Of a DNA stretch of 64,000 nt, positions 1,426 through 47,236 are shown one piece after another; the first letter of the stretch is position 1, and each line of letters begins with the position of its first letter. This DNA is from Nitrospira sp. (GTDB taxonomy: Bacteria > Nitrospirota > Nitrospiria > Nitrospirales > Nitrospiraceae): NCBI GenBank assembly GCA_024998595.1, contig JACOEK010000001.1, positions 620,001 to 684,000 of the forward strand, in the 5' to 3' direction. The notes beneath the pieces were generated by a model, which was given only the letters and a program-made list of their open reading frames with translations, made no database searches and was not told the DNA's origin. Position numbers and translations under genes: made by a program.

Positions 1426-1467
1426 CCTGCCGCCTATGACCAACTGAATATAAGGGGAGATCCCGAG

Positions 1468-3288: not shown

Positions 3289-3394
3289 CATCCAACGTGA
3301 CCTGTTTTTTGTGAGAGATCCGGCTGGAGCCAATCTCTTATTCATAGGACGGGGACGCAACCCATAGATAGTAATAACCGACGGAGAACCCACT

Positions 3395-5641: not shown

Positions 5642-7897
<2,256 letters not shown>

Positions 7898-7978
7898 ATG
7901 GGTATTAGCTGAATAAGCCTCAGGGCGGAGGGAGTGAATTCTCCCTTCGCCACCCTTTCCACGGTTCGCGAGAAAATC

Positions 7979-8689: not shown

Positions 8690-8757
8690 TGCGTTGTGCC
8701 GTCAGCCGGTTCTGAGCGCGTGGCTCGGGTACTGTGCTCCGCGCTGAAAGTAAAACC

Positions 8758-10359: not shown

Positions 10360-10447
10360 GGCGGCGGTCGGTGTGACATAGGAGATCGCCGGGCTGTTGT
10401 GCGCGCTATGTTATTTGTCATGAGCCACTAGCTCTTATGAGGATTCA

Positions 10448-11626
10448 ATGAACGTTCATGAATTTCAGGCCAAGCAGTTGTTCGCACAATTTGGGGTGCC
10501 AGTGCCGCGTGGAAAGGAAATTACCTCGCCGGAGGGAGCGACTGCGTGGGCCAATGAACTAAATACCCCAGTGTTTGTCGTAAAGGCTCAGATTCATGCA
10601 GGCGGACGTGGGAAAGCCGGTGGGGTCAAGATCACAAAGGATAAGGGCGCCATTGCAGGCCTCGCCAAGGAATTGATCGGGAAGACCCTGATTACCCACC
10701 AAACGGGACCCAAAGGCAGAACAGTCCATCGATTGTTACTTGAGGAGGGTGCGAATATCGCCAAAGAGCTCTATTTGAGCATATTGGTGGATCGCGACAC
10801 CGGTTGGCCTACCTTTATTGCCAGTACCGAAGGCGGTATGGAAATCGAGGAGGTTGCTGAGAAAACTCCGGAGAAGATCATCAAGGAAGCGATCGATCCG
10901 GCTGTTGGATTTCAGGGCCATAATGGTCGCAATGTGGCCTTTGCCTTGGGGCTGCAGACCATGGAGCCGGCTGTCATCAATCCGTTTGTGCAGATGCTCG
11001 GCAATCTCTACCGTCTGTTCATGGAGAAACACGCCGCGCTCGTCGAAATCAATCCGTTAATCATCACCAAGGAAAAGACACTGGTCGCGTTGGACGGGAA
11101 GGTGTCGTTTGACGACAACGGATTGTTCAAACATGAAGATGTGCAAAAAATGCGGGATCTGAATGAGGAAGACCCGCTGGAAATCGAAGCGACGGCAAGC
11201 AACCTCAATTATGTAAAGCTTGACGGCAATATCGGCTGCATGGTGAACGGCGCGGGCCTCGCGATGGCGACGATGGATGTGATTAAGCTGGCGGGCAGTG
11301 AACCGGCCAACTTTCTGGACGTCGGCGGCGGGGCAACGAAAGACACCGTCGCAGCCGGTTTTCGGATTCTGCTGAAGGACCCGAACGTCAAAGGCATTTT
11401 TATCAACATTTTCGGCGGCATTGTGCGCTGCGAGCGTATCGCTCACGGCGTCATCGAAGCGGCCAAGGAAGTGAAGATTACAGTACCCTTAGTCGTTCGC
11501 CTTCAAGGTACAAATGCAGATGAGGGTCGGAAGCTGTTAGCAGATTCCGGCCTCAAGCTAGAGGTTGCCAACGATTTGTGGGAAGCGGCGCAGAAAATCG
11601 TCAAGCTGACCGGCAAGGCGGCGTAA
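10448..11626 (+). CDS. sucC: succinyl-CoA synthetase (ADP-forming) beta subunit
   Basis: 392 aa; [71 protein letters not shown]. Confidence 0.97.
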
Positions 11627-11637
11627 AGGAGAAGACC

Positions 11638-12510
11638 GTGAGCATTCTCGTCAATAAGAATACGCGAGTAGTGGTGCAAGGAATCACGGGGAAGGAAGGG
11701 TCTTTCCACGCGACGCAGTGCAAAGCCTACGGTACGAAAATGGTCGCCGGGGTCACGCCCGGTAAAGCCGGTCAAGAAGTTGAAGGCATTCCTGTCTTCA
11801 ATACTGTGGTTGATGCCGTGAAAAAGACCGATTGCGACACTTCCCTAATTTTTGTGCCGCCTCCCTTTTGTGCGGATGCAATTTTGGAAGCCGCCGATGC
11901 AGGCGTGAAATTGATCATCTGCATAACCGAAGGCATTCCGGTCAATGATATGGTGAAAGTGAAACGGGCACTACACGGACGTGATGTCCGCCTGATCGGT
12001 CCAAACTGTCCTGGTGTCATTACAGTCGATGAGGCGAAAATCGGCATCATGCCGGGCTTCATCCACAAACGCGGCGTAGTCGGGGTCGTGTCTCGCAGCG
12101 GGACCTTGACCTATGAGGCTGTGCACCAGCTCTCCACGTTGGAACTCGGGGAGACGACCTGCGTGGGCATTGGCGGGGATCCGGTCAATGGGACAGGCTT
12201 CGTGGATGTTTTGCCGCTGTTTGAGAAGGACCCCGAAACACAGGCAGTAGTCATGATCGGGGAAATCGGTGGCGACGCCGAAGAGAAGGCAGCCGAGTAC
12301 ATCAAACAGCATGTGAAAAAGCCGGTGATCAGTTTTATCGCTGGGATCACTGCGCCTCCGGGCCGCCGTATGGGACATGCAGGAGCCATCATTTCAGGCG
12401 GAAAGGGAACGGCGACGGAAAAAATGAAGGCCCTCGAATCCGCTGGCGTTCGAGTCGTGAAAAATCCCGCCGAGATCGGCCATGCTGTGATGAAGGCTCT
12501 TGGGCGTTAG
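11638..12510 (+). CDS. sucD: succinyl-CoA synthetase alpha subunit
   Basis: In-frame GTG at 11638 preceded by aaaggag, 12 nt after the sucC stop; [51 protein letters not shown]. The longer listed ORF (11578) would overlap sucC. Confidence 0.96.
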
Positions 12511-24099: not shown

Positions 24100-25020
24100 T
24101 CAGCACCAGGCCCCAAGCCGGCATGAGACGAAGGGCTGAGACAGGGCAGCACTCGGAGCGCGTTTGAGGTCAGGAACGGCTGGCGCGGTAAACGCTGACG
24201 GGACCGAGGCCGCGAGCAGCGTGTTGGATGGCTGGCCTTGCGGTGCCGGAGTTTCCTTGTTGGATGCGATTGTCGGCGGCGATGATTTTTTCTCCAGCTT
24301 GGTCAGCAGGCGGCGGCCGCTTCCGGCGACGTCGCTATTGGGATACTTTTCAGCCAAGAGTTGCAGCTTCTCCGTGGCCCAATCGTTAGCCCCGAGTTCC
24401 TGATAGGTCATGGCTAGATAGTACAGGGCTTCCGGCGCCACCTTCTTGTCCGGATAATCCTTCATGATCATGTCGAATCGGTGGGCAGCCGCCAGGTACG
24501 ACGAGCGGCGATAGTAAAACTGCCCGACAAACAGGTGCGTCTGGGCGAGCCAATCATGGCAGTCGGCCATACGCTGAAGCGCTTGGCCTTCGTATTTGCT
24601 GCCGGGGAAGTCCTTCCGCAATTTTTCAAACGCGGCAATAGCTTTCTGAATCGGCTCCGGATCGCGGTCGATTGATTTTCCCATCCGAAGATGGCTTTCC
24701 CCTAAACGGAACTGTGCGTAGACGGCAAGTTGGTGGCTGCGATGCAGTTCCAAGAAATGCTGGTATTCAACGATGGCCTCGGCGAACTCTTCCTTGTCGA
24801 AAAACGCCTCGCCGCGTTTCATAATCACATTGGGGTCGTAGTTCTTTTCGATAGTGTCGCCCAGGAAGATTTGTTCATCCGTCCCGCTGACGGGTTTGCC
24901 TTGGGCCGTGGTCTTAGGCTTGCTCGAACATCCGGCCCCAAAACACAGCAGCGTCACGATGACGATGACGCGCGCACACCAATCCCTCGAATGCCGATGC
25001 ATCCAGCCACTCCTTCGCAC
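24100..25020 (-). CDS. outer membrane protein assembly factor BamD-like lipoprotein
   Basis: 306 aa; lipobox-like LLCFGAGCSS, TPR-type repeats (GEAFFDKEEFAEAIVEYQHFLELHRSHQLAVYAQFRLGESHLRMGKSIDRD, FPGSKYEGQALQRM). Start could also be at 25002. Confidence 0.82.
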   Translation of the reverse strand: MRRSGWMHRHSRDWCARVIVIVTLLCFGAGCSSKPKTTAQGKPVSGTDEQIFLGDTIEKNYDPNVIMKRGEAFFDKEEFAEAIVEYQHFLELHRSHQLAVYAQFRLGESHLRMGKSIDRDPEPIQKAIAAFEKLRKDFPGSKYEGQALQRMADCHDWLAQTHLFVGQFYYRRSSYLAAAHRFDMIMKDYPDKKVAPEALYYLAMTYQELGANDWATEKLQLLAEKYPNSDVAGSGRRLLTKLEKKSSPPTIASNKETPAPQGQPSNTLLAASVPSAFTAPAVPDLKRAPSAALSQPFVSCRLGAWC

Positions 25021-30762: not shown

Positions 30763-31725
30763 ATGAAGATTTATTTAGCCAATCCTCGCGGATTCTGCGC
30801 GGGTGTCGACCGCGCCATCGATATCGTCGATTTGTCCCTTAAGAAATACGGCGCGCCGATTTATGTGCGCCATGAGATCGTCCATAGCCGGCACGTGGTG
30901 AACTCGCTCCGGCACAAGGGCGCCGTGTTCGTGGAAGAGTTGAACGAGGTGCCGGAGGGATCAGTCGTGATCTTCAGCGCCCACGGCGTGGCGAAATCGG
31001 TGTGGGAAGAGGCGCAGAGCCGCCGCCTGCATGTGATCGACGCCACCTGTCCGCTGGTCATCAAGGTGCATAACGAAGTCAACCGCGATTACACGCAAGG
31101 CTACGAGTTGATTTTGATCGGCCATGCGGGCCACCCCGAAGTCATCGGGACGCTGGGGCAGATCCCGGATAAGTTTCACCTGGTGTCCTCGGTGCAGGAC
31201 GTGGAAACGTTGCAGGTGGAGAAGACACAGAATCTTTCCTATGTGACCCAGACGACACTCAGTGTCGATGAGTGCCGAGATATTGTCGAGGCCTTGCATC
31301 TGCGGTTTCCGAATATCAAAGGTCCGCATCAGGAAGATATTTGTTACGCCACGCAGAACCGCCAGAATGCGGTCAAGTCGTTGTCGAAGCTGGTCGATGT
31401 CATCCTCGTCATCGGGTCACCGAACAGTTCCAACTCCAACCGGTTGCGCGAATTAGGCGAGCATTGCGGCATTCCCTCCTATCTCATCGATGCCGCATCG
31501 GATATCAACCCGGATTGGCTGAAGGATGCGAAGAGTGTGGGCTTGTCGGCGGGCGCCTCCGCTCCCGAAGTGTTGGTCACGGAAGTGGTCGCCTATCTGA
31601 AGCGTCTTGGCTCTTCTGAAGAGGTCGAGGAATTGACCGTCATCGAGGAGGATGTGGAATTTCTTCTTCCGAAAGAATTGGTCACCATCGAGTCTGCTTC
31701 ACGCACCGCAGCCTCTGCGAACTAA
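30763..31725 (+). CDS. ispH: 4-hydroxy-3-methylbut-2-enyl diphosphate reductase
   Basis: Likely ATG at 30763; [88 protein letters not shown]. Confidence 0.97.
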
Positions 31726-31823: not shown

Positions 31824-31913
31824 TTGCATTGATTCTATCGCTGTGATAGAAGATTTTTCGTTTTCTTCCTCACGAAGCGTCCCATCTCAACCTTCTTGCT
31901 CTGGAGGTCGCCG

Positions 31914-34900
31914 GTGTATCTGAAGTCCTTGGAAATGCTCGGCTTCAAGTCATTCGCGGAAGCGAAAATCCAATTTCCGAAAGGCATCACGGCGATCGTG
32001 GGTCCGAACGGCAGCGGTAAAAGCAATGTCGTGGATTCCATCCTCTGGGTGTTGGGCGAGCAAAGCACCAAAACGCTTCGGAGCGAGAAGATGGAAGACG
32101 TCATCTTCAACGGGACGGAGGTGCGTAAACCGCTCGGGTTGGTAGAAGTCTCATTGGTCATCGGAGGACTGGGCGAGTTGCGGCTGGATGCCATTTCAGG
32201 ATTGCCGAGTCAATTAAGCGAGTACCAGGAACTGATGATTACGCGCCGTCTCTATCGCAATGGCGACAGCGAGTATCTCATCAACAAGACGTCATGCCGC
32301 CTCAAGGATATTCGGAACGTGCTGATAGAAACCAGGGCCGGGTCCAAGGGGCATACCGTTATCGAGCAGGGACGGATTGAGCAGATCCTGCAGGCGTCCC
32401 CGCAGGACCGCCGGGAGTTGATCGAAGAAACCGCCGGGATCGTCCGCTACAAAAAGCAGAAGGCTGAAGCGCTTCGCAAACTGGAATCGACGCAACAAAA
32501 CCTCTTGCGGGTGCGCGATATTGTGGCGGAAGTGAAAAAACAGCTGAATTCACTGGAGCGCCAGGCTCGCCAGGCCCGGACGTACCAAACCCTGCAGCAG
32601 GAAGCGAAGGGACTCGAGATCGAGCTGTTGTCCCGTGACTATCGCACGATGCATGCCGATCTGGAATCCGTCGATCGCGAAGCACGGGAAGTGGAAGCGT
32701 TGGAGGCCGAACAGGTGGCCGAGCAGGCTCGCCTGGATTCGGAACAGGAAGCGATCCGGTTCCGGATGAACGACGCGGCCGAGGCCATTTCGCGCGTGCG
32801 GGATACCTTGGCCGGCACTGAGCAGCGTCAGTCGCAAGCGTTGACGGCCGCGGAGGTTGAGCGAAACCGGACGGAATTGTTCGAGCGGCAACGTGTCCAG
32901 GCTTCACAGGAAATGGAACGGCTGGCGGCGGATCAAGAACAGGCCCAGGTCGAGATCGAAGAACTTCGGGCGACTTTACTGCAATTGGATGGCGACATTG
33001 TGGCCCAGGAAGCGCAGTTTCAGCAGGCGGACGCTGAAGCCAAGGCCTTGGCCGGGCATCGGACTGCAGCGGTCGGCGAAGAGGAACGCGCCCGAAAGGA
33101 TGTCCTCAATCTCGCCGTCCTCGTGGCGAACACGGAGCAGAGCCTTGCGCAGGTGACTACACGTCAGCAGGAAACCTCAGCCCGAGCGGAACGGGTCACG
33201 CGCGAGCAGGAGCAGATGGTTGCGCAAGTGGCCGGGTTGGATGAGCAGCGGGAACTGCTTGCGGCGCAGCGGGAAGAGGCGAGTCAGCGCATTCAGGGGC
33301 TCATGGCAGAACGTCAGGCTGCGATCGAGCGCATTGAAGGGTTGGGCGGGCAGATCACGGGATTGGATCGCGATATCGTCCGGCTTTCCGAGGATGTCGC
33401 CGCAGTGGAGTCACGCTTGGGCGCGCTGCAGGGTGTCGTGCGGGAGGAAATGGGGTACGGCCGCGAAGGGCAAGAAGAAGGCACCGCATTGAAAACCTGT
33501 GACGGCGTGCGCGAGGCGCTCGCAGAATGGCTTGTGATCCCGCCGGGCCTGGATCGGGCGGTTGAGACGATTCTAGGTGAGCGGGTGCGTGGGTGGTTGG
33601 TCGATCAGCCCGCCGCTGCCGGCCGTGCGGTGGAGTTTTTGAAGGGCAAGGAGCTCGGTCGCGGGGCTTTTATCCCGCAGCACATTCGTTGGGCGCCCGA
33701 CCAGGCGGCAGCGGATTCCTCGGCCTCCTGGTGGCCTGCGCTCAATGGCCAGCCGGGAGTGGTGGGGCGTGCCGCGGATGTCATCCATGCAGAAGGGGCA
33801 TCCGCTCCCACCCTGAGTTATTTGTTCGACGGCATTGTGATCGTTGAGTCCCTCGCTGTGGCGCTGCAATTGTGGGAGCAGCATCAGTGGCCGGCTCCTG
33901 CAGGTCCGACCTATGTGACGTTATCCGGTGAGACGCTGGATGCGGCGGGTGTGATGACCGGCGGCGGCACCAGTGCCGGTGCGGGACTCCTGCAGCGCCG
34001 GCGGGAAGTGCTGGAGTTGGAAGCCCGTCGTACTGAGGCGGTGCAAGCGCTGGAGCTGGCTCGCGTGGCACGTGAGGAGGCGGCGTCTGCACTGGGCTTG
34101 GGGAGGGAGGAGGAACAACAGCTCGGCCGGGCCATTCGCGAAGCAGAGATGTTGGAATTGTCGCTTCAGAAAGATGATGCGAACGTAGAGCGTCAGCGTG
34201 GAGAGTTGCATCGGCGCATGGATGTGTTGGGGGAAGAACTGCAGCGGAGCTTGGCTGAGCAGGCGCGGCTTCAGGAACAGTTCCACTCCAGCCAAGCGCA
34301 GCTGGAGCAATGGGTGGGGGAAAAGGTCGGACAGGAAAGCGGGTTACTTCAGGTACGGGAACGGCTGGTAGTCATTGAGAGCCAAGGGCTGGCGATTCAG
34401 CAACGATTGACGGAAGTCCGCCTCTCCCTGGAAAGCATGCGCGGCCGGAGAGAGCATGCCAACAGCGATATTGCGCGGTTCACGCAACGGCTGGATGCGG
34501 CGCAGCGGCGGGCGGCCGATCTCGAAGAGCAGGTGACCGGGCTGGTGCAGGCAACAGAGAACAGCCGGGAGGAGCAGACCAGGCAGGAGGCGCTCTGCCG
34601 CGAACTCGGCGCTGAGGTTGATGGGATCAAGTCCGAACTTATTGCGGCTCAGGAACGTCAGGCGCAGGCAATGACCGGCCTTCACGCGGTGGAGGAGACC
34701 CTCACCACGATACGACAGAGTTTGTCGGCATTGCATGAGCGCCGTATGACTGCCGAGGTTCGCAAGGCCGAAGTGAAGGCGCATCTGTCCACCATCGAAA
34801 GCACGCTGGCTGGCACCTACCAGATCGATCCGGCGACTCTACTGGCCTCGCCAACGGAGGGGCAGCCCATATCGGAAGGGGAAGAGGCCGCCGCACCCGT

Positions 34901-35597
34901 CTCCATGCTGGAGACGCCGCAGTTGCGGGAACAGATTCAGAAAATCCGCGAACGGTTGGACCGCATGGGCGCGATCAATCTGGCGGCTATTGATGAGCAT
35001 CGTGAGTTGGAAGAGCGGTATCAGTTCCTCACGACGCAGGAGCAGGATCTGTCGACCTCCATTGCGTCGCTCAAGGAGATCATCCAGCGGATCAACCGCA
35101 CGACCAAAGACATGTTCGTCGAGACCTTCAACGAACTGCAGCAGAAGTTTCGGGATGTATTTGCGCAATTCTTTCCCGGGGGCCGAGCGGAGCTGCAATT
35201 GGTCGAAGAGCCGCTGGAAGAAGGGGTAGAGGACAATGGCGCCCGCGAGCCGGGTGTGGAAATCGTGGCGCAGCCGCCGGGGAAGCGGTTGAAGAGTATT
35301 ACCATGTTGTCCGGCGGAGAGAAGACCCTGACGGCCATGGCGCTGTTGATCGCCAGTTTCTTGATCCGTCCGACTCCGTTCTGTATCCTGGACGAAATCG
35401 ATGCGCCGTTGGATGAAGAAAACATCGGGCGGTTCACGGCGGTGCTGCGCAGTCTTTCGGCGACGGCCCAATTCCTCGTCATCACGCACAACAAGCGCAC
35501 GATGGCGATGGCCGATTCGCTCTTCGGCGTGACCATGGAAGAGCCGGGTGTGTCGACCCTGATTTCGGTCAAGCTCGGCGATCTTCAGCCGGCCTAA
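31914..35597 (+). CDS. smc: chromosome segregation protein SMC
   Basis: Likely GTG at 31914; [50 protein letters not shown], coiled coils, hinge, [44 protein letters not shown]. Confidence 0.97.
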
Positions 35598-35763: not shown

Positions 35764-37992
35764 ATGGAACCGTTTCGACTATCGATCCCGCCGTCTCTGT
35801 CTGATTCACGGCAACACGCTATGCGACTTCTCAAGAATCTGTTCAGTCGTCTGTCCGATAGTCTTCTGGTCTCGGTGCCGAGCCGTATCAGGGCGGCCCG
35901 CGATTTTGCGTCTGCTCCCGTGCTACGCCTCGTCTCCAGCAAACCTGACCCTACAGTCGGTGAGAATGCAAAGCGGGCTCCTTCGCATACCACCGGTCAA
36001 CTCGAGGCTCTTGAAGAGGCGATTCGGAAGAGTCAGGCTTGGTTTTTGGCCCGGCAGGATGCGGCGGAAGGCTTTTGGGTTGCAGAGCTGGAAGCTGATA
36101 CGACGCTGAGTTCGGAATACCTGATGTTGCGCCGGTTCATGAACTGCGTCGACCCCGAGCGCGACCGCAAAGTGATCCGCTATTTGAAGTCCGCGCAGCT
36201 TCCCTGCGGCGGCTGGCCTATTTATCACGGCGGACCGGCGGATATCAGCGCGTCTGTGAAGGCCTACTTTGCCTTGAAACTGTCCGGTGTCTCGGCCGAT
36301 GAACCCTTCATGGTCAACGCGAGAACCTGCATCCTCGACAAGGGCGGGGTGGTGGCGGCCAACGTCTTCACGAAAATCGCCCTGGCTCTGTTCGGGCAAT
36401 ACGACTGGCGTGGTGTCCCCAGCATGCCGCCAGAAATCATGCTGTTGCCGAAGCGGTTCTATTTCAGCATCTACGCCATATCCTACTGGTCGCGCGCGGT
36501 GCTGATTCCACTCTTGATCATTTTCGCAAAACGACCGCACTGTTACGTGCCGCCGGAGCAGGGCATTGACGAGCTGTACACGGAACCCCCGGCGCAGATT
36601 GACTATGGCACGGTGCCGCCCTTCAAGAAGGACCGGACGTGGTTTACCGCCAGAAACTTTTTCATCAATCTCGACGCGCTGCTCAAGATCTATGATCGCT
36701 CGCCTGTGGAGTGGGTCCGCCAGAAAGCGCTCAAGTGCGCCGAGAACTGGATGCTCGATCATATGAAGGGGAGCGGTGGACTCGGCGCAATTTATCCCGC
36801 CATGGCCAACTCGGTGATGGCGCTGAATTGCCTGGGGTATAAGAATGACGATCCTCTCGTCGTGAAAGCGATGCGGGAAATCGAAGAACTCGAAATTCAC
36901 GATACCGTGATGGAGAACGGACAATGTGTCGATGCGTTGCATCTGCAACCCTGCCATTCTCCGATCTGGGACACCGCGTTGCTCATTAATGCGCTGTCCG
37001 AGGCCGGGATGACGCATGACCATCCGGCATTGCAGAAGGCAGCCACCTGGTTGTTGTCCAAACAAACGAAGACCGTCGGCGACTGGATTATTTCCTCTCC
37101 TGGCGCGGAGCCGGGCGGCTGGTATTTTCAATTTGAGAACGAGCTGTTCCCTGACGTGGACGATTCAGCGGTGGTGCTGATGGCCCTGGCCAAAGTGCGT
37201 CTGCCCGATGAAGACCAGCAGCGGCTGGCCATTCGCCGAGGATGCCGGTGGGTGACGGCCATGCAGGGATCCGACGGCGGGTGGGGCGCGTACGATGTCG
37301 ACAACAATCGGATCGTGTTCAACTACATTCCCTTCGCCGACCATCGCGCGTTGTTGGATCCCAGTACGGCCGATCTGGCTGGCCGCTGTCTCGAAATGCT
37401 TGCCACCCTGGGGTATGACTGGACGCATCCGTCCGTGGCCTCGGCGCTGACCTTTATCAAAAACGATCAGGAGCAGGACGGCAGTTGGTATGGTCGTTGG
37501 GGAGTGAATTACATTTACGGGACCTGGTCGGTTCTCTCCGGCCTGCGCGCCATCGGCGAGGATCTCTCTTCTCCCTATATCCGCCGTGCGGTCAGTTGGG
37601 TCGAGTCGAAGCAAAATCCCGACGGCGGCTGGGGCGAGTCTTGCCTCTCCTATGCGGATGTTGCGGAGAGTGGCTGTGGCGAGAGTACCCCGTCGCAAAC
37701 CGCCTGGGCGCTGTTGGCTCTCATGGCAGGCGGCGTCACGGACTCATTCAGCCTGGCCAGAGGTATTCACTACCTCATTCGGAATCAGCGGAAGGACGGG
37801 TCATGGGAAGAGGTACGTCATACCGGAACCGGTTTCCCTCGCGTGTTCTACCTCCGTTATCATTGGTATTGCCAATATTTCCCCCTCTGGGCACTGGCCA
37901 TGTACCGCAATCTGAAGACTCGTGGAACGACGCGGGCAGATGAATTGCGACAGCTGGCCTATCAATCAGGACAGTTCCGGTCGCCTCGCTGA
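35764..37992 (+). CDS. shc: squalene-hopene cyclase
   Basis: ~742 aa; catalytic DVDD (LFPDVDDSAVVLMAL), QW-type repeats (GSDGGWGAYDVDNNR, QEQDGSWYGRWGVNYIYGTWSVLSGLRAIG, KQNPDGGWGESCLSY, QRKDGSWEEVRHTGTGFPRVFYLRYHWYCQYFPLWAL). Start could be the internal ATG at 35821. Confidence 0.96.
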   Translation: MEPFRLSIPPSLSDSRQHAMRLLKNLFSRLSDSLLVSVPSRIRAARDFASAPVLRLVSSKPDPTVGENAKRAPSHTTGQLEALEEAIRKSQAWFLARQDAAEGFWVAELEADTTLSSEYLMLRRFMNCVDPERDRKVIRYLKSAQLPCGGWPIYHGGPADISASVKAYFALKLSGVSADEPFMVNARTCILDKGGVVAANVFTKIALALFGQYDWRGVPSMPPEIMLLPKRFYFSIYAISYWSRAVLIPLLIIFAKRPHCYVPPEQGIDELYTEPPAQIDYGTVPPFKKDRTWFTARNFFINLDALLKIYDRSPVEWVRQKALKCAENWMLDHMKGSGGLGAIYPAMANSVMALNCLGYKNDDPLVVKAMREIEELEIHDTVMENGQCVDALHLQPCHSPIWDTALLINALSEAGMTHDHPALQKAATWLLSKQTKTVGDWIISSPGAEPGGWYFQFENELFPDVDDSAVVLMALAKVRLPDEDQQRLAIRRGCRWVTAMQGSDGGWGAYDVDNNRIVFNYIPFADHRALLDPSTADLAGRCLEMLATLGYDWTHPSVASALTFIKNDQEQDGSWYGRWGVNYIYGTWSVLSGLRAIGEDLSSPYIRRAVSWVESKQNPDGGWGESCLSYADVAESGCGESTPSQTAWALLALMAGGVTDSFSLARGIHYLIRNQRKDGSWEEVRHTGTGFPRVFYLRYHWYCQYFPLWALAMYRNLKTRGTTRADELRQLAYQSGQFRSPR

Positions 37993-37998
37993 CCGTGG

Positions 37999-38802
37999 AT
38001 GTTCATCGAGTCCATTTCTCCTTGTCATCAGTCATCGGGAGTCGCTGTGACCACGATTGGTGTCTTCGTCGCGACTCGATGGGAGCTCGACGCGGTGCGT
38101 CGTGCATTCGGGACAACCGAGGCACGGGTCGTCGACGGAATTCGCTGTCTGGTCGCGTGCCAGGCGTTGGTCGAGTGGTGGATCATTCCTATGGGAGTGG
38201 GGCCCGAGCGGGCTACGGCCACCGCCAAGCGCGTGCTCGCGGCGCAACGTTTGACGGCAGTCTGGTCCACAGGATTTGCCTGCGCCCTGGGGCCGTCTGG
38301 CATCGGGGATGTGTTGATCGGTACTCAGGTAATCATGGAAAACGGTGCGCGAGCGGGATCTCTGGTTTCATGCGCCCCGGGCATGATCGATTGGATCAAT
38401 GCGGCGGTGCACGCGCAAGGCCTGCCGATGCGACACGGGGGGTTTGTGACGGTTCCTCGAGTGGTCTGTCTGGCGGAGGAAAAGCGAGAGATTGCCGGAC
38501 GAGCCGGAGGCATCGGCCTCGACATGGAAAGCGCAGCCTTGGGAGTGGTGGCCTCGGAGCATCGGATTCCGTTTGCGATCGTGCGCACGGTCTCGGATCT
38601 GGTCAATGAGAGTCTGCCGCTTGACTTCAACCTGTTTCTCAGGCCATCTGGATGGGCAAAGGGTGTGTTTGCGTGCTTGGCGCATCCAACGGCTCTGATC
38701 GGGCTCAATCGTCTGCGTGTGCAAAGTCAGGTCGCCGGGGCGCAATTAACGGCCTTGTATCGAGCCTGTGCTGAGCGGGCCCTGCGTGAAGAGATCGGTT
38801 GA
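37999..38802 (+). CDS. nucleoside phosphorylase-like protein, candidate hopanoid nucleosidase HpnG
   Basis: 267 aa; MTP/AdoHcy nucleosidase-type motif GIGLDMESAALGVVASEHRIPFAIVRTVSD; directly downstream of shc. Confidence 0.8.
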   Translation: MFIESISPCHQSSGVAVTTIGVFVATRWELDAVRRAFGTTEARVVDGIRCLVACQALVEWWIIPMGVGPERATATAKRVLAAQRLTAVWSTGFACALGPSGIGDVLIGTQVIMENGARAGSLVSCAPGMIDWINAAVHAQGLPMRHGGFVTVPRVVCLAEEKREIAGRAGGIGLDMESAALGVVASEHRIPFAIVRTVSDLVNESLPLDFNLFLRPSGWAKGVFACLAHPTALIGLNRLRVQSQVAGAQLTALYRACAERALREEIG

Positions 38803-38855
38803 CCGGAGCGACGCGAGGTCGGCGGCCGGTTCGTGAGACAAGAGGAGGGCGAGGC

Positions 38856-39623
38856 GTGGAAGGTATTGCTCGCATCGGACGGTATACCATCGATCTGACG
38901 GAGCAGATGGGGCGGATGATGCTGTTCGTCCTCTCGTCCTTTGCCTGGCTGACCCGTCCGCCGTTCAGGTTCTATCAAATCGTCAAACAGCTGAACTTTA
39001 TCGGCTACAAATCCACCTTCGTGGTCGTCCTCACCGCCGTCTTTACGGGCATGGTTCTGGCGCTTCAAGGCTACTACACACTGCGGAAGTTCGGATCCGA
39101 GGCGGTGCTGGGTTCGGCCGTGGCGTTGAGCATCATTCGTGAGTTAGGGCCTGTGCTTGCCGCGTTGATGGTGACGGCCCGCGCCGGATCTGCCATGACG
39201 GCCGAAATCGGCATCATGCGGATTACCGAGCAGATCGATGCCCTGGACACGATGGCCATTAATCCGCTGCAATATCTGATCGGCCCCAAGCTCGTCGCCA
39301 GTTTGATCGCCGTGCCGCTGCTGGTGGCCTTATTCGACGTGGTCGGCATTTACGGTGGCTACGTAGTCGGCGTACAGTTGCTGAACGGGAATGAAGGCGC
39401 CTACTGGAGCTCCATCGAGTCGGCAGTGGAGTGGAAGGATGTCTATGGCGGCATGCTCAAATCCATCAGCTTCGGGCTATTGATCAGTTGGGTCTGCTGT
39501 TATAAGGGGTTTCATACCAAACACAGTGCCGAAGGTCTCGGAACGGCGACCACCGAAGCGGTGGTGCTGTCCGCAGTCTTGATCCTGGTGTGGGATTATT
39601 TTCTGACGTCGGTCCTGCTGTAA
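38856..39623 (+). CDS. mlaE: MlaE-family ABC transporter permease
   Basis: Likely GTG at 38856 preceded by gaggagggc; FTGMVLALQGYYTLRKFGSEAVLGSAVALSIIRELGPVLAALMVTARAGSAMTAEIGIMRITEQIDALDTMAINP. Confidence 0.94.
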   Translation: MEGIARIGRYTIDLTEQMGRMMLFVLSSFAWLTRPPFRFYQIVKQLNFIGYKSTFVVVLTAVFTGMVLALQGYYTLRKFGSEAVLGSAVALSIIRELGPVLAALMVTARAGSAMTAEIGIMRITEQIDALDTMAINPLQYLIGPKLVASLIAVPLLVALFDVVGIYGGYVVGVQLLNGNEGAYWSSIESAVEWKDVYGGMLKSISFGLLISWVCCYKGFHTKHSAEGLGTATTEAVVLSAVLILVWDYFLTSVLL

Positions 39624-39677
39624 GCCAATCATCCGATAGCTTCGGGAAAACTGCTGGAACAGGTTCGGAACGATTCG

Positions 39678-40439
39678 ATGATTAAACTGGTCGGTGTCGA
39701 AAAAACGTTGGGGAAGCAGGCCGTGCTGCGCGGTGTGGACCTGACCATTCCCACGGGAAAACTGACGACCATCATCGGGCGCAGCGGCGAAGGCAAGAGT
39801 GTGTTGCTGAAGCACATCATCGGCCTGATGCAGCCGGACCGCGGTGAAGTCTGGATCGACGGAACGAACATTGCGCGCCTTAAGGGGCAGGCGCTCAACG
39901 AAGTGCGGAAGAAATTCGCGATGCTGTTCCAGGGGGCGGCCCTGTTCGATTCCATGACGGTGTTTGAGAATGTGGCTTTTCCCCTGCGGGAAAAGCTCCG
40001 CCTGAAGGGCGACGTGGTCACCAGGCGGGTCGAGGAGAAGCTGGATCAGGTGGGGCTGAAGGGCATGGGGCATAAGTTTCCCGCGGAGCTGAGCGGCGGC
40101 ATGCGCAAACGCGCGGGGCTGGCCCGCGCACTGGTGATGGAGCCGGAGATCATTCTGTTCGATGAGCCGACGACGGGCCTTGATCCATTGATGGCGAAAG
40201 CCATTCACGACCTCATCGTAACGATGCAGCAGCAATTCCGCTTCACCGCCGTGATGGTCAGTCATGAGATCCCGGAAATTTTCGGGATTTCCGATTACGT
40301 GGCGATGCTGAAGAACGGCCGGATTGCCGAAATGGCCCCGTCGAGCGAGTTTGTGAAAACGACCGATGAAGAGATCCGCGAGTTTATTTTCGTCGGAGGC
40401 ACGGTCGCGCCGAAAATGCTGTCGACTGAGAGCCGCTGA
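39678..40439 (+). CDS. mlaF: MlaF-family ABC transporter ATP-binding protein
   Basis: 253 aa; Walker A GRSGEGKSVLLKHIIGLM, signature ELSGGMRKRAGLARAL, Walker B EIILFDEPTTGLDPL. Confidence 0.94.
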   Translation: MIKLVGVEKTLGKQAVLRGVDLTIPTGKLTTIIGRSGEGKSVLLKHIIGLMQPDRGEVWIDGTNIARLKGQALNEVRKKFAMLFQGAALFDSMTVFENVAFPLREKLRLKGDVVTRRVEEKLDQVGLKGMGHKFPAELSGGMRKRAGLARALVMEPEIILFDEPTTGLDPLMAKAIHDLIVTMQQQFRFTAVMVSHEIPEIFGISDYVAMLKNGRIAEMAPSSEFVKTTDEEIREFIFVGGTVAPKMLSTESR

Positions 40440-40450
40440 TAGGAGACGTT

Positions 40451-40894
40451 ATGGAACGCGCAAAACTGGAATTGATGGTCGGAATCTTCGTGCTCGTCGG
40501 GCTTGCCTGCCTGGGCTATCTCTCCATCAAGCTGGGCAAGCTGGAGGTCATCGGCGGACACAATTATCCGGTCGAGGCGGAGTTTACATCGGCCTCTGGA
40601 CTCAAACCGGGGGCATCGGTCGAAATTGCCGGCGTCGAGGTCGGCCGGGTCCGCACCATCGGCCTCAGCAGTGACCGTGCCTTGGTGGCGTTGGCGATTC
40701 AGGACGGTGTGAAGTTGTATTCGGACACGATTGCTTCCATCAAAACCCGCGGGATCATCGGCGATAAGTACCTCGCGCTGTCCGTAGGCGGGGGCGGTGA
40801 TCCCTTGAAGCCCGGTGACAAAATCCGTGACACCGAATCAGGACTTGATCTGGAAGAATTGGTTAGCCAGTATGTACATGGCAAGGTCAACTAA
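40451..40894 (+). CDS. mlaD: MlaD/MCE-domain substrate-binding protein
   Basis: 147 aa; KLELMVGIFVLVGLACLGYLSIKLG TM followed by the MCE domain YPVEAEFTSASGLKPGASVEIAGVEVGRVRTIGL. Confidence 0.94.
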   Translation: MERAKLELMVGIFVLVGLACLGYLSIKLGKLEVIGGHNYPVEAEFTSASGLKPGASVEIAGVEVGRVRTIGLSSDRALVALAIQDGVKLYSDTIASIKTRGIIGDKYLALSVGGGGDPLKPGDKIRDTESGLDLEELVSQYVHGKVN

Positions 40895-40906
40895 TCTCAT
40901 CGGCTC

Positions 40907-41596
40907 ATGCATCAGAGGACGAAAATGCTCAAACCGGGCCGGTGGGGCGAGGAGATCACCACTCACAGGAGAGGTGTTGGTATGAATGTAAGGCGATGGA
41001 TGGTCGTGGGTGTCGTCCTGGCGCTGCACCTGTTCATGGGCGGGCTGTCGTCCGCCATGGCCGGTCCGGCGACCGAATCGATCAGGGGGACGGTCGATGA
41101 GGTACTGAAAATTTTAGGCGATAAAGAGTTAAAAGCCCCTGCCCGGCATGAGGATCGACGACAGCGTTTAGAGAAGGCGGTGGCGGCACGGTTCGACTAT
41201 TCCGAAATGTCCCGGCGGTCGCTGGGCGCGCAGTGGAATCAATTGTCGGACAAGGAGAAGCAGGAGTTCGTCGATTTGTTCCGTACCCTGCTGACCAATA
41301 CCTACGCCGACAGGGTAGAGACCTATTCCGGCGAAGGCGTGCAGTATCTCAACGAACGCACGGAAAAAGAATATGCAGAGGTGCGTACGAAGGTGCTCTC
41401 CGGCAAAACCGAAATTCCCATGGACTACCGGCTGCTGAACAAAAGTAACGATTGGCATGTGTACGACGTCGTGGTCGATGGTGTCAGTCTGGTGAACAAT
41501 TACCGCGGGCAATTTACGAAGATCCTTCACACCTCCTCGTATTCCGACCTCGTTGACCAGCTTCGCAAAAAATCCGACAAGATCAAAGCTCCGTAG
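40907..41596 (+). CDS. mlaC: MlaC/Ttg2D (HpnM-like) periplasmic lipid-binding protein
   Basis: Likely start at 40982 (MNVRRWMVVGVVLALHLFMGG signal peptide); FDYSEMSRRSLGAQWNQLSDKEKQEFVDLFRTLLTNTYADRVE. Confidence 0.9.
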   Translation: MHQRTKMLKPGRWGEEITTHRRGVGMNVRRWMVVGVVLALHLFMGGLSSAMAGPATESIRGTVDEVLKILGDKELKAPARHEDRRQRLEKAVAARFDYSEMSRRSLGAQWNQLSDKEKQEFVDLFRTLLTNTYADRVETYSGEGVQYLNERTEKEYAEVRTKVLSGKTEIPMDYRLLNKSNDWHVYDVVVDGVSLVNNYRGQFTKILHTSSYSDLVDQLRKKSDKIKAP

Positions 41597-41629
41597 TTTT
41601 AAGAGAGAGCGACCGTTCCGGCGAGCGCC

Positions 41630-42835
41630 ATGCAGCGACTTTATTTTTCGTCGATCCGTATTCTCCTGGCGCTGGCCGGACTCCTGGTGCCGAGCTTTTC
41701 GGATCCGGCAGGGGCCGACACGCAAATTTTCCCCGTGCCGTCGGTCTCCACCAGCAAGAACGACGGAAACGACGCCGGCTTGATTGCGCCGATTCTGATC
41801 TCCGATCCGGACGGCGAATTGAAGTACCTCATGGCGCCGATGTTGATTCAGAATTCGATTGTCGGTAGCCGCGCGGTCTTCAATCTCTTTAAATACGACC
41901 CGGGCGGGCGGCAAATGAAGCTGATTGCTTCGTTGACCGAGAGAATCGAACGCAAGGTGCTGTTTGACTATGTCGACCCCGCGTTCGGTAACGGACAGTA
42001 CTTTCTGAACTTCGGCGGGACCTTCTTCAAAAATGCCACCTCGCGGTTCTTCGGGCTGGGCCAATCGACGGTACAGGCGGATGAATCGAACTACACGGCC
42101 AGAGAAGCGCGTGCCTACTGGCGGCTCGGCCTCTACGCGAACGAAGTGACGCAGGTCTCAGTCGGGCAGCGGGTCCGGCAGGTCCAACTCCAGCGGGGTG
42201 CCACGGACCTTCCTTTTTCGGTCGAGCAATTCCCGACCGTCGACGGCATTCAAGGCGAGTCGATCATCGTCGGGCATCGCGCCTCATTTTATTACGACAC
42301 CCGCGACAGCCTGGTCACGCCTACCGACGGCATGTCTGTCATGGCCTACGCCGAGCTGAATCAAAACGTCAAAAATGGCGACCATCCCGTCTATTCACGG
42401 TACGAAATCGAAGTGAAGAAGTTGTTTCCCAGCGAATCCAAGCGGGCCATCCTGGTCGTCCGGGCCGATCTGCAGGCCACGATTGGCTCTCAAGTGCCGT
42501 TCTTCGAGCAATCGTCGTTGGGCGGACAGAACAATCTGCGTGGATTCGGTATGGATCGCTATATCGACAAACATCTGATCGCCTTCAGTATCGAAGAGCG
42601 GATTCATATCCTGCGCACGAAGCTGGCGGGAGTAACCGCGGATTTTGAGCTGGCTCCGTTTTTGGACACGGGCCAGGTGTTTAACTCATTTAAGGATGTG
42701 AGCTTTCAAGATTACCGGATGACGCCGGGCGTCGGCTTTCGAGCTATTGTGCGCCCGAACGTTGTCGGTCGTCTGGATTATGGATACAGCCGCGAAGGCG
42801 GAGCAATTTTCGCCGGGCTGGATTTCCCCTATTGA
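41630..42835 (+). CDS. short Omp85/surface-antigen-D15-like outer membrane barrel protein
   Basis: 401 aa; signal peptide; Omp85 loop-6-like motif LGGQNNLRGFGMDRYIDKHLIAFSIEERIHI; C-terminal GAIFAGLDFPY; no POTRA region evident. Confidence 0.78.
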   Translation: MQRLYFSSIRILLALAGLLVPSFSDPAGADTQIFPVPSVSTSKNDGNDAGLIAPILISDPDGELKYLMAPMLIQNSIVGSRAVFNLFKYDPGGRQMKLIASLTERIERKVLFDYVDPAFGNGQYFLNFGGTFFKNATSRFFGLGQSTVQADESNYTAREARAYWRLGLYANEVTQVSVGQRVRQVQLQRGATDLPFSVEQFPTVDGIQGESIIVGHRASFYYDTRDSLVTPTDGMSVMAYAELNQNVKNGDHPVYSRYEIEVKKLFPSESKRAILVVRADLQATIGSQVPFFEQSSLGGQNNLRGFGMDRYIDKHLIAFSIEERIHILRTKLAGVTADFELAPFLDTGQVFNSFKDVSFQDYRMTPGVGFRAIVRPNVVGRLDYGYSREGGAIFAGLDFPY

Positions 42836-43863
42836 ACGCCTGGGTGAACGGCCGGGTATTACTCATGCGGCAGATCGTCTATTTTCTTTGCGTTATCGGT
42901 ATTCCGTGTGCCTTGCCGCTTCTGGTCAACGCCGAAGGGTTTGGGCCCTTTCCCGTCAGAAACTTCCAAGCCCTGGACCAGCTGGTCCTGGCGATGCCTG
43001 GCGAGCGGGCGGCTGTGCTGCGTAAGGGCGATTTCGATATTCGTCTCGAAGCAGCCAATACCGCCTCGATCGCCCGAGACCAGGAAGAGCAGGCCGATGT
43101 GACCATGAAGTTTGAGACGGTTCGTGCCGCGTTATTCCTGCGGTATGGCCTGACCGATCGGCTGGAAATCGGGGTGGAAGTACCGGGGTATCACCGATAT
43201 CGCGGATTCATGGAGGAGCCAATCCTCGGGGTGGAGCGGGGGACGACCGGGATTTCTCCGGCTCGTAAAGCGCTGCGGGAAACGGCCTACGCCTTTAATG
43301 TTACCAACGGTGGTCGCACCCTGTTTCAGGGTACCAAGGGCGCGACCGGGCTGGGCGATATTTCGTTCTATGGGAAATATCAACTGCTGAAAGAAACCTC
43401 GACGCTTCCGGCCCTGTCGTTTCGCGTGGGGGTCAAAGCTCCGACCGGAGATACGGACCAGGTCTTCGGCAGCGGGCATCCGGATGCGGGCATCGGTCTC
43501 GCGCTGGATAAGACCTTCGCGACCGGGTGGATTGTCTATGCCAACTTAAACGGGGTGTTTCCGACAGGGCAGATCGCCGGGCTCGACCTCCAGCCGGTCA
43601 TAAGCGGGTTGGTGGCTGTGGAATATCTCTGGACGGAGAATTTTTCCATCACGGCGCAGTTCGATTACTACTCGCCGCCGTTTCACGGCACCGGAACGAG
43701 GGTGCTGGACAAGGGTGTGACAGAATCCGTCATCGGCGTCAGTTATCGGATTCTGCCCGGTCTGCTCTGGCAGGTGTACGGGATCGAAAATTTGGATTTC
43801 ATTACCGGGAGTGCGGCCGATTTTACTCTTTCAACGGTCTTCACCTACCGGTTCCGCTCGTAA
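42832..43863 (+). CDS. DUF3187 family predicted outer membrane protein
   Basis: 343 aa; signal peptide; EGFGPFPVRNFQALDQLVLAMPGERAAVLRKGDFDIRLE, C-terminal VFTYRFRS; TTG start overlapping the preceding gene by 4 bp. Confidence 0.75.
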   Translation: MNAWVNGRVLLMRQIVYFLCVIGIPCALPLLVNAEGFGPFPVRNFQALDQLVLAMPGERAAVLRKGDFDIRLEAANTASIARDQEEQADVTMKFETVRAALFLRYGLTDRLEIGVEVPGYHRYRGFMEEPILGVERGTTGISPARKALRETAYAFNVTNGGRTLFQGTKGATGLGDISFYGKYQLLKETSTLPALSFRVGVKAPTGDTDQVFGSGHPDAGIGLALDKTFATGWIVYANLNGVFPTGQIAGLDLQPVISGLVAVEYLWTENFSITAQFDYYSPPFHGTGTRVLDKGVTESVIGVSYRILPGLLWQVYGIENLDFITGSAADFTLSTVFTYRFRS

Positions 43864-44045: not shown

Positions 44046-45989
44046 ATGTCTCTGTTGAAAAATATCCACAGTCCCGCTGATTTGAAGCGCCTGTCCCCTG
44101 AACAGTTTCCGGAACTATGCCAGGAGATTCGTGAGCAAATCCTCGGGGTGGTTTCGAATGTCGGGGGGCATCTGGCCTCCAATCTGGGTGTCGTGGAGTT
44201 GACGGTCGCACTGCAATATCTCCTGGAGACGCCAAAGGATAAAATCGTCTGGGATACGAGCAATCAAGCCTATACCCACAAGCTCCTCACGGGACGCCGG
44301 GAACAGTTCCATACGTTGCGGCAATACGGCGGGTTGAGCGGCTTCTGCAAGCGTGAAGAGAGTGTCTATGACACCTTCAATGCCGGCCATGCCGGCACCG
44401 GCGTCTCGGCCGCCTTCGGCATGGTGGAAGCACGCGAGCAGCGGGGCGAAAAACACAAGGTCGTCTGCGTCGTCGGCGACGGGGCCATGACGGCGGGAAT
44501 GACTCTTGAGGGTTTGCACCACGCCGGCGGGACGAATAAGGACTTTATCGTTGTCCTGAACGACAATCAAATGTCGATTTCCCGAAACGTTGGAGCCATT
44601 TCCGCCTACCTGAACCGGACTTTCACCGGCGAGTTCTATGCCCGGATGCGTGAAGAAACCGGCCAGCTGCTCAGAAAGATTCCCCACATCGGCTTGGAAG
44701 TTCAGAAAATAGCCCGGCGGGCTGAAGAATTGGCCAAGGGCGCGATTCTTCCCGGTCTGTTGTTCGAGGAATTAGGCTTCCAGTATGCCGGGCCGATCGA
44801 CGGACATAACTTTGAACACCTCCTTCCGACATTGGAAAACGTGCTGAAAATGAAAGGCCCGGTCCTGCTGCACGTGATCACGAAAAAAGGCTTGGGGTAT
44901 CAGGCTGCCATGGACAACCCCGTCTGGTTCCATGCCTGCCCTCCGTTCGTGCGCGAAACGGGCGTGCCGGCGAAAAAGGCCGTACGTCCCAGTTACACCA
45001 GCATGGCGGTCGATGCCTTGATCAAAGTGGCGCGTCAAGACAAGCGGGTGGTGGCGATCACTGCCGCGATGTGTGAAGGCACCGGTCTGAATGCGTTTGA
45101 AAAAGAGTTCCCCGATCGGATCTATGACGTCGGCATCGCCGAGCAACATGCCGTCACCTTCGCCGCCGGTATGGCTGCGCAGGGCATGAAGCCGGTGGTG
45201 GCCCTGTATTCCACTTTCTTGCAACGAGCCTATGACCAGGTCGTGCACGATGTGGCTACCCAGAACTTGCCGGTCACCTTCTGCATCGATCGAGGCGGTC
45301 TCGTAGCCGAAGACGGCACGACCCACCATGGCGCATTCGATTTCGCGTTCCTGCGGCATGTGCCGAACATGGTGGTGGCCGCGCCGAAGGATGAGAACGA
45401 GCTGCAGCACATGATGAAGACCTGCGTCAGCTACGATGGTCCCGCCTCGGTGCGATATGCCCGTGGTGTGAGCCTCGGTGTCCCGATGGATCCCGAACCG
45501 ACGGCATTGCCGATTGGTAAGGGCGAGTTGTTGCGAGAAGGAACGGATGTGGCGATCGTGGCGATTGGCGTGACAGTTTGGCCGGCTATGAAGGCCGCCG
45601 AACGGTTGGCGCAGGAAGGTATTTCCGCCGCCGTGGTGAACGCTCGCTTCGCGAAGCCGCTGGATACCGAACTCATCCTCAAGACCGCGAAGAACGTCCG
45701 TTGCTTGGTAACGGTGGAAGAAGGCTGCAAAATGGGCGGATTCGGTTCCGCAGTCCTGGAAACGCTGTCCGACGCCGGACTCATGTTGCGAACCAAGGTG
45801 CTGGGATTGCCGGATTGGTACATCGAGCAAGGCCCGCAGGACCTGTTGCGCGAACGGTACGGCCTGACAGCGGACGGTATCTATAACAGCGTCAAAAATA
45901 TTTTTGGCGCCGGTGTGGTCGCAGACGATGCCGCGCGCGTGGCCTCGCTCGTCGGCAGCTTGCCGCATGGCGATGAGCAGGGCAGCTAA
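44046..45989 (+). CDS. dxs: 1-deoxy-D-xylulose-5-phosphate synthase
   Basis: 647 aa; HLASNLGVVELTVALQYLL, VVGDGAMTAGMTLEGLHHAG, YDVGIAEQHAVTFAAGMAAQGMKPVVALYSTFLQRAYDQVVHDV. Confidence 0.97.
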   Translation: MSLLKNIHSPADLKRLSPEQFPELCQEIREQILGVVSNVGGHLASNLGVVELTVALQYLLETPKDKIVWDTSNQAYTHKLLTGRREQFHTLRQYGGLSGFCKREESVYDTFNAGHAGTGVSAAFGMVEAREQRGEKHKVVCVVGDGAMTAGMTLEGLHHAGGTNKDFIVVLNDNQMSISRNVGAISAYLNRTFTGEFYARMREETGQLLRKIPHIGLEVQKIARRAEELAKGAILPGLLFEELGFQYAGPIDGHNFEHLLPTLENVLKMKGPVLLHVITKKGLGYQAAMDNPVWFHACPPFVRETGVPAKKAVRPSYTSMAVDALIKVARQDKRVVAITAAMCEGTGLNAFEKEFPDRIYDVGIAEQHAVTFAAGMAAQGMKPVVALYSTFLQRAYDQVVHDVATQNLPVTFCIDRGGLVAEDGTTHHGAFDFAFLRHVPNMVVAAPKDENELQHMMKTCVSYDGPASVRYARGVSLGVPMDPEPTALPIGKGELLREGTDVAIVAIGVTVWPAMKAAERLAQEGISAAVVNARFAKPLDTELILKTAKNVRCLVTVEEGCKMGGFGSAVLETLSDAGLMLRTKVLGLPDWYIEQGPQDLLRERYGLTADGIYNSVKNIFGAGVVADDAARVASLVGSLPHGDEQGS

Positions 45990-46039: not shown

Positions 46040-47236
46040 ATGCATATCACCAGGAAAAAAACACGGCAGATACAGGCAGGCAAGGTCAAGATCGGCGGAG
46101 ATGCACCGATTTCTGTCCAGTCGATGTGCTCCACCGACACGCGCGACGTGAAGGCGACTGTGGAGCAGATTCGGCAGTTGGAAACCGCCGGCTGCGAGCT
46201 CATTCGTGTCGCCGTTCCGGACGAAGCGGCGGCGGACGCGTTGCCGAAGATCAAGGCGGCGATGACGGTGCCGTTGATTGCCGACATCCACTTCGACCAT
46301 CGCCTGGCGCTCAAAGCGGCCGAGGTCGTCGATTGCGTGCGTATCAACCCCGGTAACATCGGGGCCTGGTGGAAGGTGCAGGAGGTGATCAAGGCCGTCA
46401 ACGAGCGGGGCATTCCCCTGCGCGTGGGCGTGAACGGCGGCTCGCTTGAACGGCCCCTGCTCGATAAGTATGGCTGGCCTTCTCCCGAAGCGCTCTCCGA
46501 GTCGGCCTTAAACGCCGTGCATGCGCTTGAAGACGAAGGCTTCACCAACATGAAGGTGTCGCTCAAGGCTTCTGACGTGCATCACGCGATCGATGCCTAC
46601 TATCTGTTCTCCACTCAGTCCAATTACCCGTTGCATATCGGCATTACCGAAGCCGGCACCGCTATGACCGGCGCGGTCAAATCCGCGATCGGCCTTGGCT
46701 GGCTGCTCTCGCAAGGCATCGGTGACACGCTGCGCGTCTCACTCGCCGCCGATCCTGTGGAAGAAGTAAAAGTCGGGTTCGAGATTCTGAAGTCGCTGGA
46801 ATTGCGTCATCGCGGCATCAACGTGATTGCCTGTCCGACCTGCGGTCGAGTTGAAATCGATGTGGTACGTCTGGCCAATGAGTTGGAAAAGAAATTGGGC
46901 CATATCAAGACCCCGTTGAATGTGTCAGTTCTCGGTTGCGTCGTGAACGGCATTGGCGAAGGCAAGGAAGCCGATATCGGCATTGCCGGCGGCGAGGGCA
47001 AAGGCATTCTCTTCAAGAAGGGGAAGCTGATGCGCAAGGTGCCCATGGACGAACTCATGGATACGCTCATCCACGAAGTCGAGCTGCTGGCCAAGGAAAA
47101 AGAAGCTGAAGCGGCAGGCGTGACGCACAATGGGTCGGACGAGCAAGCAGAGGCAGGTTGGGAACTAATGGGTCATGCGCCGGATGAGCAGTCCACCATC
47201 GTCCGCGACATTCCGGTGCTCCCGAGCAAGCCCTAA
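46040..47236 (+). CDS. ispG: 4-hydroxy-3-methylbut-2-en-1-yl diphosphate synthase
   Basis: 398 aa; PISVQSMCSTDTRDVKATVEQIRQLETAGCELIRVAVP, VRINPGNIG, ACPTCGRVEID, VSVLGCVVNGIGEGKEADIGIAGG. Confidence 0.97.
   Translation: MHITRKKTRQIQAGKVKIGGDAPISVQSMCSTDTRDVKATVEQIRQLETAGCELIRVAVPDEAAADALPKIKAAMTVPLIADIHFDHRLALKAAEVVDCVRINPGNIGAWWKVQEVIKAVNERGIPLRVGVNGGSLERPLLDKYGWPSPEALSESALNAVHALEDEGFTNMKVSLKASDVHHAIDAYYLFSTQSNYPLHIGITEAGTAMTGAVKSAIGLGWLLSQGIGDTLRVSLAADPVEEVKVGFEILKSLELRHRGINVIACPTCGRVEIDVVRLANELEKKLGHIKTPLNVSVLGCVVNGIGEGKEADIGIAGGEGKGILFKKGKLMRKVPMDELMDTLIHEVELLAKEKEAEAAGVTHNGSDEQAEAGWELMGHAPDEQSTIVRDIPVLPSKP

Follow-up and report, generated by a model that had tools for sequence, protein, structure and literature searches.

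A conserved hopanoid-linked envelope locus of Nitrospirota encoding an MlaC-family carrier and a POTRA-less Omp85-family barrel

The window analyzed here is a stretch of 64,000 nucleotides of Nitrospira sp. (contig JACOEK010000001.1, assembly GCA_024998595.1), and the genome holding it comprises 4.23 Mb on 15 contigs. It contains a run of eight genes, which begins with the genes for squalene-hopene cyclase (SHC) and an HpnG-like phosphorylase, continues with the Mla-type genes mlaE, mlaF, mlaD and mlaC and ends with the genes for two predicted outer-membrane barrels, an Omp85-family protein lacking POTRA domains and a DUF3187 protein. The locus extends past these eight genes: ispH and smc come before them and dxs and ispG after them, in the same direction. 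An initial annotation, made from the sequence alone, had described the eight genes as co-directional and had read mlaE, mlaF and mlaD as a transporter in this order; open reading frames and profile scans confirm the positions and show all eight on the + strand, and matches to PF02405, ABC_tran and PF02470/TIGR04430 confirm the transporter. The genes are as follows (f1 denotes the family to which this genome belongs; MEP, methylerythritol phosphate).

30763–31725, + strand: ispH (LytB), MEP isoprenoid pathway (PF02401; NF002188 486.8 bits, over its cut-off); an upstream neighbour retained in relatives
31896–35597, + strand: smc, a syntenic neighbour without an evident role in the module (open reading frame, called from sequence and synteny); retained upstream of shc in f1
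35764–37992, + strand: shc, squalene-hopene cyclase, 742 amino acids (TIGR01507 767.5 bits, passing the cut-off of 431.1)
37999–38802, + strand: HpnG-like phosphorylase, 267 amino acids (PF01048; TIGR03468 is the top-scoring model, though its cut-off of 187.1 is missed with 95.4 bits)
38799–39623, + strand: mlaE, permease (PF02405 282.8 bits, cut-off 22.5); likely true start GTG 38856
39678–40439, + strand: mlaF, ATPase (ABC_tran; best NCBIfam model MlaF PRK11831, 223 bits, under the cut-off of 441)
40451–40894, + strand: mlaD, short form with a single MCE domain, 147 amino acids (PF02470; TIGR04430 139.9 bits, cut-off 135)
40907–41596, + strand: mlaC-family periplasmic carrier (PF05494 172.5 bits, cut-off 26); likely true start ATG 40982
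41630–42835, + strand: POTRA-less Omp85-family outer-membrane barrel, 401 amino acids (PF01103 68.2 bits; AlphaFold2 model)
42832–43863, + strand: DUF3187 outer-membrane barrel (PF11383 79.7 bits, cut-off 24; AlphaFold2 model); likely start ATG 42865
44046–45989, + strand: dxs, first enzyme of the MEP pathway (TIGR00204 820.9 bits)
46040–47236, + strand: ispG, MEP pathway (open reading frame, annotated from sequence; synteny)

When the longest possible starts are taken, the intergenic gaps from shc to the DUF3187 gene amount to 6, -4, 54, 11, 12, 33 and -4 bp. The tight spacing described in the initial annotation is thus real, but its 4-bp overlaps both need TTG starts, for which better alternatives exist: the GTG at 38856 in mlaE is preceded by GAGGAGGG, and the ATG at 42865 provides the DUF3187 protein with a clear signal peptide. 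These two starts and the ATG at 40982, which is probably the true start of mlaC, are preferred because of their better ribosome-binding sites or signal peptides, and the genes are probably tightly packed but non-overlapping. The number of terminator-like sites within the locus was not above chance expectation.

The order smc/ispH, shc, HpnG-like gene, mlaE-F-D-C, omp85, DUF3187 gene and dxs/ispG is not unique to this genome, but recurs across Nitrospirota families; the majority of 80 public genome contigs and further relatives have it as well, which is far beyond chance. The 80 loci were collected by a conserved-peptide scan and are nearly all from Nitrospirota; one is labelled Nitrospinota (L177) and has the arrangement seen in the sister family f2. 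The order is common to the genus and f1, to f2 and to f33/f34, and in many relatives hpnH follows shortly after ispG (TIGR03470 549.7 bits in one of them). The initial assignment of the cluster to hopanoid synthesis is supported, and the region is an envelope locus that is real, conserved and linked to hopanoids.

The order is, however, not invariant. Several f2 genera and genome G287 do not have the mlaEFD genes at this position. In f12, shc-hpnG is preceded, in a different order, by mlaEFD, a gene for a TolC-like outer-membrane efflux protein and mlaC, and omp85 is located elsewhere, adjoining ispH in loci L050 and L066. Other families keep shc-hpnG-omp85 amid different neighbours; for instance, L065 (f6) contains a polyprenyl synthetase gene, hpnA, a CruF-like gene, hpnH, shc, hpnG, omp85 and duf3187 and no mla genes, and the order in L067 and L077 is shc-omp85-hpnA-ispH. 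In f18, which was taken as Leptospirillaceae from its gene content, shc and omp85 are adjacent, yet no match to MlaC was found in any genome of this family. A gene order resembling the mlaEFD-tolC-tamB arrangement of Veillonella (PMC10665443) is found in L084 and L093 (f12) and L097 (f24), where a gene for an outer-membrane protein of 450–490 amino acids, TolC-like in L084, separates mlaEFD from mlaC; a 476-amino acid gene occupies the same position in L096 (f19).

Ten genomes have no match to MlaE, namely eight f2 genomes with HpnN, the established transporter of hopanoids from the inner to the outer membrane, and G135 and G287, which encode Omp85. In these genomes, mlaC nonetheless adjoins shc, as seen in the loci inspected, which cover most of these genomes, and judged for the rest from MlaC and SHC coordinates about 1 kb apart. 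MlaEFD was considered as an essential part of the system and rejected, as shc-hpnG-mlaC(-omp85) is kept in genomes without any MlaE match; its dispensability also follows from the retention of shc-hpnG-omp85 in Leptospirillaceae, in which no match to MlaC was found. Thus, the eight genes do not form one obligate machine, because Omp85 persists where MlaC was not found and mlaC persists where MlaE was not found. HpnN proteins of Nitrospirota are paired with true HpnM, a member of the MlaC family (190–217 bits, cut-off 160), and usually with MlaA, so that there is a precedent for an MlaC-type carrier in hopanoid traffic. Judged from these gene neighbourhoods, it is therefore the MlaC family and not MlaEFD that recurs as partner of the hopanoid genes. 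The MlaC protein of the window itself reaches the cut-off of neither equivalog (HpnM TIGR03481, 105.4 versus 160.1 bits; MlaC PRK15117, 32 versus 195 bits); its identification as HpnM was thus rejected. HpnN-linked proteins score 191–217 bits with TIGR03481. Loci L178-L184, L188-L191 and L089, which contain HpnN, encode an HpnM-type MlaC and often also MlaA, which suggests a possible role of MlaA in the hopanoid traffic of HpnN-type genomes.

The Omp85-family protein had been annotated as a predicted outer-membrane barrel tied to hopanoid synthesis, and both the fold model and the co-occurrence with SHC described below agree with this. The AlphaFold2 model, built from a 30-sequence alignment (mean predicted local distance difference test score 74.8, predicted template modelling score 0.68), consists of a signal peptide followed by around 16 strands; the barrel starts around 35 to 45 residues in from the N-terminus, and the L6 region is modelled poorly. 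An N-terminal POTRA domain as in BamA or TamA is absent, and the BamA model TIGR03303 is matched with only 45.2 bits (cut-off 297). The closest solved folds in the PDB are the barrels of TamA and BamA, and the RGF motif of L6 and the FxDxG motif are near invariant among the relatives, which places the protein in the Omp85 superfamily. In a tree of Omp85 sequences, the syntenic proteins of f1, f2, f33 and f34 form one group, and an unlinked f1 paralogue, f18, f12/f6 and f26/f14 form separate groups. A plasmid search with Omp85 gave no match. Relatives from f26 and from the SHC-negative genome G063 (L074, L075, L076 and L053) have lipobox-like N-termini, e.g. VSC, and may be lipoproteins. In the Leptospirillaceae locus L067 (9140-11362, - strand), a single frame comprises an HpnG-like phosphorylase domain (E 3e-9), a signal peptide and an Omp85 barrel; this could represent either a fused gene or two genes sharing one frame.

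The model of the DUF3187 protein (score 85.3) is a barrel of around 12 strands, whose nearest PDB folds are FapF, the COG4313 channel and FadL, families linked with the passage of polypeptides or hydrophobic molecules. Only around half of the loci contain its gene, which rules it out as an essential component; where the gene is missing, mostly 50–400 bp separate omp85 from dxs, and some f2 loci have a gene for a tetratricopeptide repeat protein instead.

Co-occurrence was determined in 326 Nitrospirota genomes, 198 in which the pattern was first seen and 128 unseen ones. Strong matches to Omp85 score at least 180 bits and the next ones around 72 bits, and the set totals match the search tallies (154 genomes with SHC, 131 with Omp85 and 27 with HpnN). 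The Omp85 family is present in 130 of 154 SHC-positive and in only 1 of 172 SHC-negative genomes, and HpnN is found in none of the latter. Among SHC-positive genomes, 22 of the 24 without Omp85 have HpnN, compared to 5 of the 130 with Omp85; 125 thus encode Omp85 only, 22 HpnN only, five both and two neither. In the first 198 genomes, 78 of 89 SHC-positive ones encode Omp85 (77 Omp85 only, one both, 11 HpnN only and none neither), and the pattern was repeated in the 128 unseen genomes (48, four, 11 and two, respectively). The HpnN protein of G029 scores 637 bits, its gene being truncated at a contig end. In the genome of the window, a profile search gave 75.3 bits as best match to the HpnN model TIGR03480, far below the cut-off of 751.85. 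Locus L187 (G229:C49:102000-121900) has two nearby SHC genes, one beside HpnN and the other in an Omp85/mla locus. Second SHC-like matches of 250–275 bits, under the cut-off, were seen in genus g10 (G171:C16, G185:C33, G065:C22 and G197:C98), where they sit within open frames of around 1150–1210 amino acids.

For HpnN versus Omp85, Fisher's test gives p 8e-20 when related genomes are counted as independent; this value was not accepted alone, because the genomes are related and the test on the tree is non-significant. The SHC tree, made from 63 sequences, contains five independent pairs with a difference in HpnN, and Omp85 changes in the opposite direction in two to three of them and in the same direction in none. 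The complementarity of Omp85 and HpnN is therefore suggestive, but not proven, as the state switched independently only about four times.

The initial annotation had noted the lack of mlaA and mlaB and had proposed that one or both barrels take the place of MlaA. Neither gene is indeed part of the locus, and no STAS domain (MlaB) was matched among the scanned locus proteins, the remaining genome not having been searched for STAS; however, the search for a canonical MlaA elsewhere, which had been named as a refuting test, detected a single copy at C9:531954-532592 (228.9 bits), adjoining a kbl-like gene. MlaA was likewise found in all sampled genomes of f1 (46 of 46) and f2 (10 of 10), and an unlinked mlaA is also the situation in E. 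coli (PMC10665443). A replacement of MlaA was thus rejected as the principal explanation, and a substitution of Omp85 for HpnN is better supported. In total, the genome encodes three MlaE and three MlaC proteins; a further MlaEFD set adjoins a PqiC-like auxiliary lipoprotein (L061).

The hopanoids in the outer membrane of Rhodopseudomonas palustris depend on HpnN (Doughty 2011, cited in PMC12583986), and PMC12583986 reports HpnN in all surveyed hopanoid-polyol-producing Alphaproteobacteria and a possible involvement of HpnM. The system described there resembles the present locus in its linkage to shc/hpn genes, its MlaC-family partner and its proposed role in hopanoid delivery to the outer membrane; however, HpnN is an inner-membrane RND (resistance-nodulation-division) protein, whereas the genome studied here has no HpnN over the cut-off, and its MlaC is no HpnM equivalog. 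The Mla pathway (MlaA-MlaC-MlaFEDB) shares MlaE, MlaF, a short MlaD and MlaC in the same order, but here they lie within a hopanoid/MEP cluster, followed by Omp85 and often DUF3187. POTRA-less Omp85 proteins have been described as the group 'noNterm', to which no function is assigned (PMC4104836). One such protein, BBJ25 of Borrelia, lies beside genes for an ABC transporter and a periplasmic carrier, with which it was proposed to deliver a non-polar ligand (PMC13078400); its partners are LolCDE/MacB- and LolA-like, in contrast to the Mla-type and hopanoid synthesis proteins encoded here. TamAB, reported to take part in moving phospholipids to the outer membrane (PMC12800296), includes the Omp85-family protein with the nearest fold, but TamA has POTRA domains and a TamB bridge, neither of which is encoded at this locus. 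The sterol transporters BstABC of Methylococcus were also spotted via co-localised genes for polycyclic triterpenoid synthesis; they belong to other protein families and have measured sterol binding (PMC10942540). The adjacency of Omp85 and hopanoid genes in Leptospirillum is already known: an Omp85/BamA gene was noted in its hopanoid cluster or system, in the context of cluster membership or acid-stress expression only, and the accessible parts of these reports contain no transport hypothesis, relation to HpnN or link to MlaC (PMC7231039, PMC12654047). The latter two relations were not found elsewhere in the literature searched.

An explanation for the passage of hopanoids to the outer membrane is available only for organisms with HpnN, and to our knowledge it does not cover the outer-membrane end of that route. 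Nitrospira and Leptospirillum, which matter for nitrification and biomining, encode the synthesis of hopanoids, the sterol-like lipids of bacteria, yet mostly lack HpnN in this survey. The favoured reading, to which we assign a probability of around 0.42, is that the isoprenoid/hopanoid supercluster also codes for part of a lipid route across the envelope. Omp85 would be the outer-membrane component of this route and MlaC the carrier, together replacing HpnN/HpnM in Nitrospirota. SHC and accessory enzymes would produce hopanoids, the presumed cargo, at the inner membrane, and MlaEFD, where encoded, would pass the lipid to the MlaC-family carrier. The carrier would then contact the POTRA-less barrel, which would take the lipid, probably by a lateral seam, and insert it into the outer membrane; MlaEFD and DUF3187 would be optional parts. 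Omp85 and MlaC may thus constitute a second, unrecognised hopanoid path. More specific, and on the doubtful side, is the idea that the barrel is a hopanoid acceptor or insertase fed by the MlaC-type carrier and a non-homologous replacement of HpnN, Omp85 machinery having been turned from proteins to sterol-like lipids. A barrel that tracks SHC and complements HpnN turns the gap in hopanoid transport into testable genes, omp85 and mlaC, and would be informative about the extent to which Omp85 barrels act on lipids.

Several observations weigh against such a route. Five genomes have both systems and two neither (G226 and G320), and the SHC-negative genome with Omp85, G063, is 83% complete. The state switched only about four times on the SHC tree, and the sign test on the pairs is not significant (p ~0.5), significance being unreachable at this number of pairs. 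Omp85 is not next to shc in f12 and f26, and five f1 genomes that were examined (G060, G141, G218, G293 and G305) have no Omp85 at the locus and only a remote paralogue. G135 and G287 have Omp85 and MlaC without a match to MlaE, which leaves the energy source unexplained, the unlinked MlaA might serve the MlaC of the locus, and Omp85 proteins are best known for protein handling. No data on hopanoid localisation in Nitrospira were found in the literature searched.

Alternatively, MlaEFD-MlaC and the unlinked MlaA could be an ordinary Mla system for phospholipids, with the barrels as passengers and the clustering with isoprenoid genes reflecting shared envelope housekeeping. MlaD exceeds an Mla-type cut-off, f1 and f2 genomes have one MlaA each and many Nitrospirota without SHC encode MlaEFD-C, too (MlaC in f19, f24 and f27-f30). 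We nevertheless consider this rather unlikely: mlaC stays between hpnG and dxs/omp85 where MlaE is not matched, Omp85 tracks SHC and not MlaC, as f18 illustrates, and the shc-mla linkage is not simply inherited synteny, because its order differs in f12 (L084 and L093).

It is unlikely, too, that Omp85 is a protein-handling accessory factor of the BAM/TAM kind, which inserts an outer-membrane protein needed in hopanoid-rich membranes, e.g. DUF3187, and is only indirectly linked to hopanoids. The similarity to TamA and BamA, the retained RGF and FxDxG motifs and the neighbourhood of omp85 and duf3187 in the window and in L065 fit such a role; however, the protein has no POTRA domain to take up polypeptides and stays where DUF3187 is gone, and the complementarity with HpnN is not explained by this alone. 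That complementarity could itself be a phylogenetic accident, in which the canonical hpn cluster, HpnN included, is found in a few clades and an unrelated Omp85 cluster in others, without functional exchange. The few switches, the non-significant pair test and the genomes holding both systems are compatible with an accident, but it is quite improbable given that the pattern was repeated in unseen genomes, that close SHC relatives in f2 split into HpnN and Omp85 types and that f26, whose SHC groups near HpnN-type lineages, has Omp85 and no HpnN.

Elsewhere in the window, a 768-amino acid protein without a Pfam match at 1e-5 is encoded at 55109-57415 (- strand) and a BamD/YfiO-type outer-membrane lipoprotein at 24100-25020 (- strand). 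Positions 1-12510 contain genes of the reductive tricarboxylic acid cycle type, among which a citrate synthase/CoA-ligase protein was assigned by Pfam and the others were read by eye.

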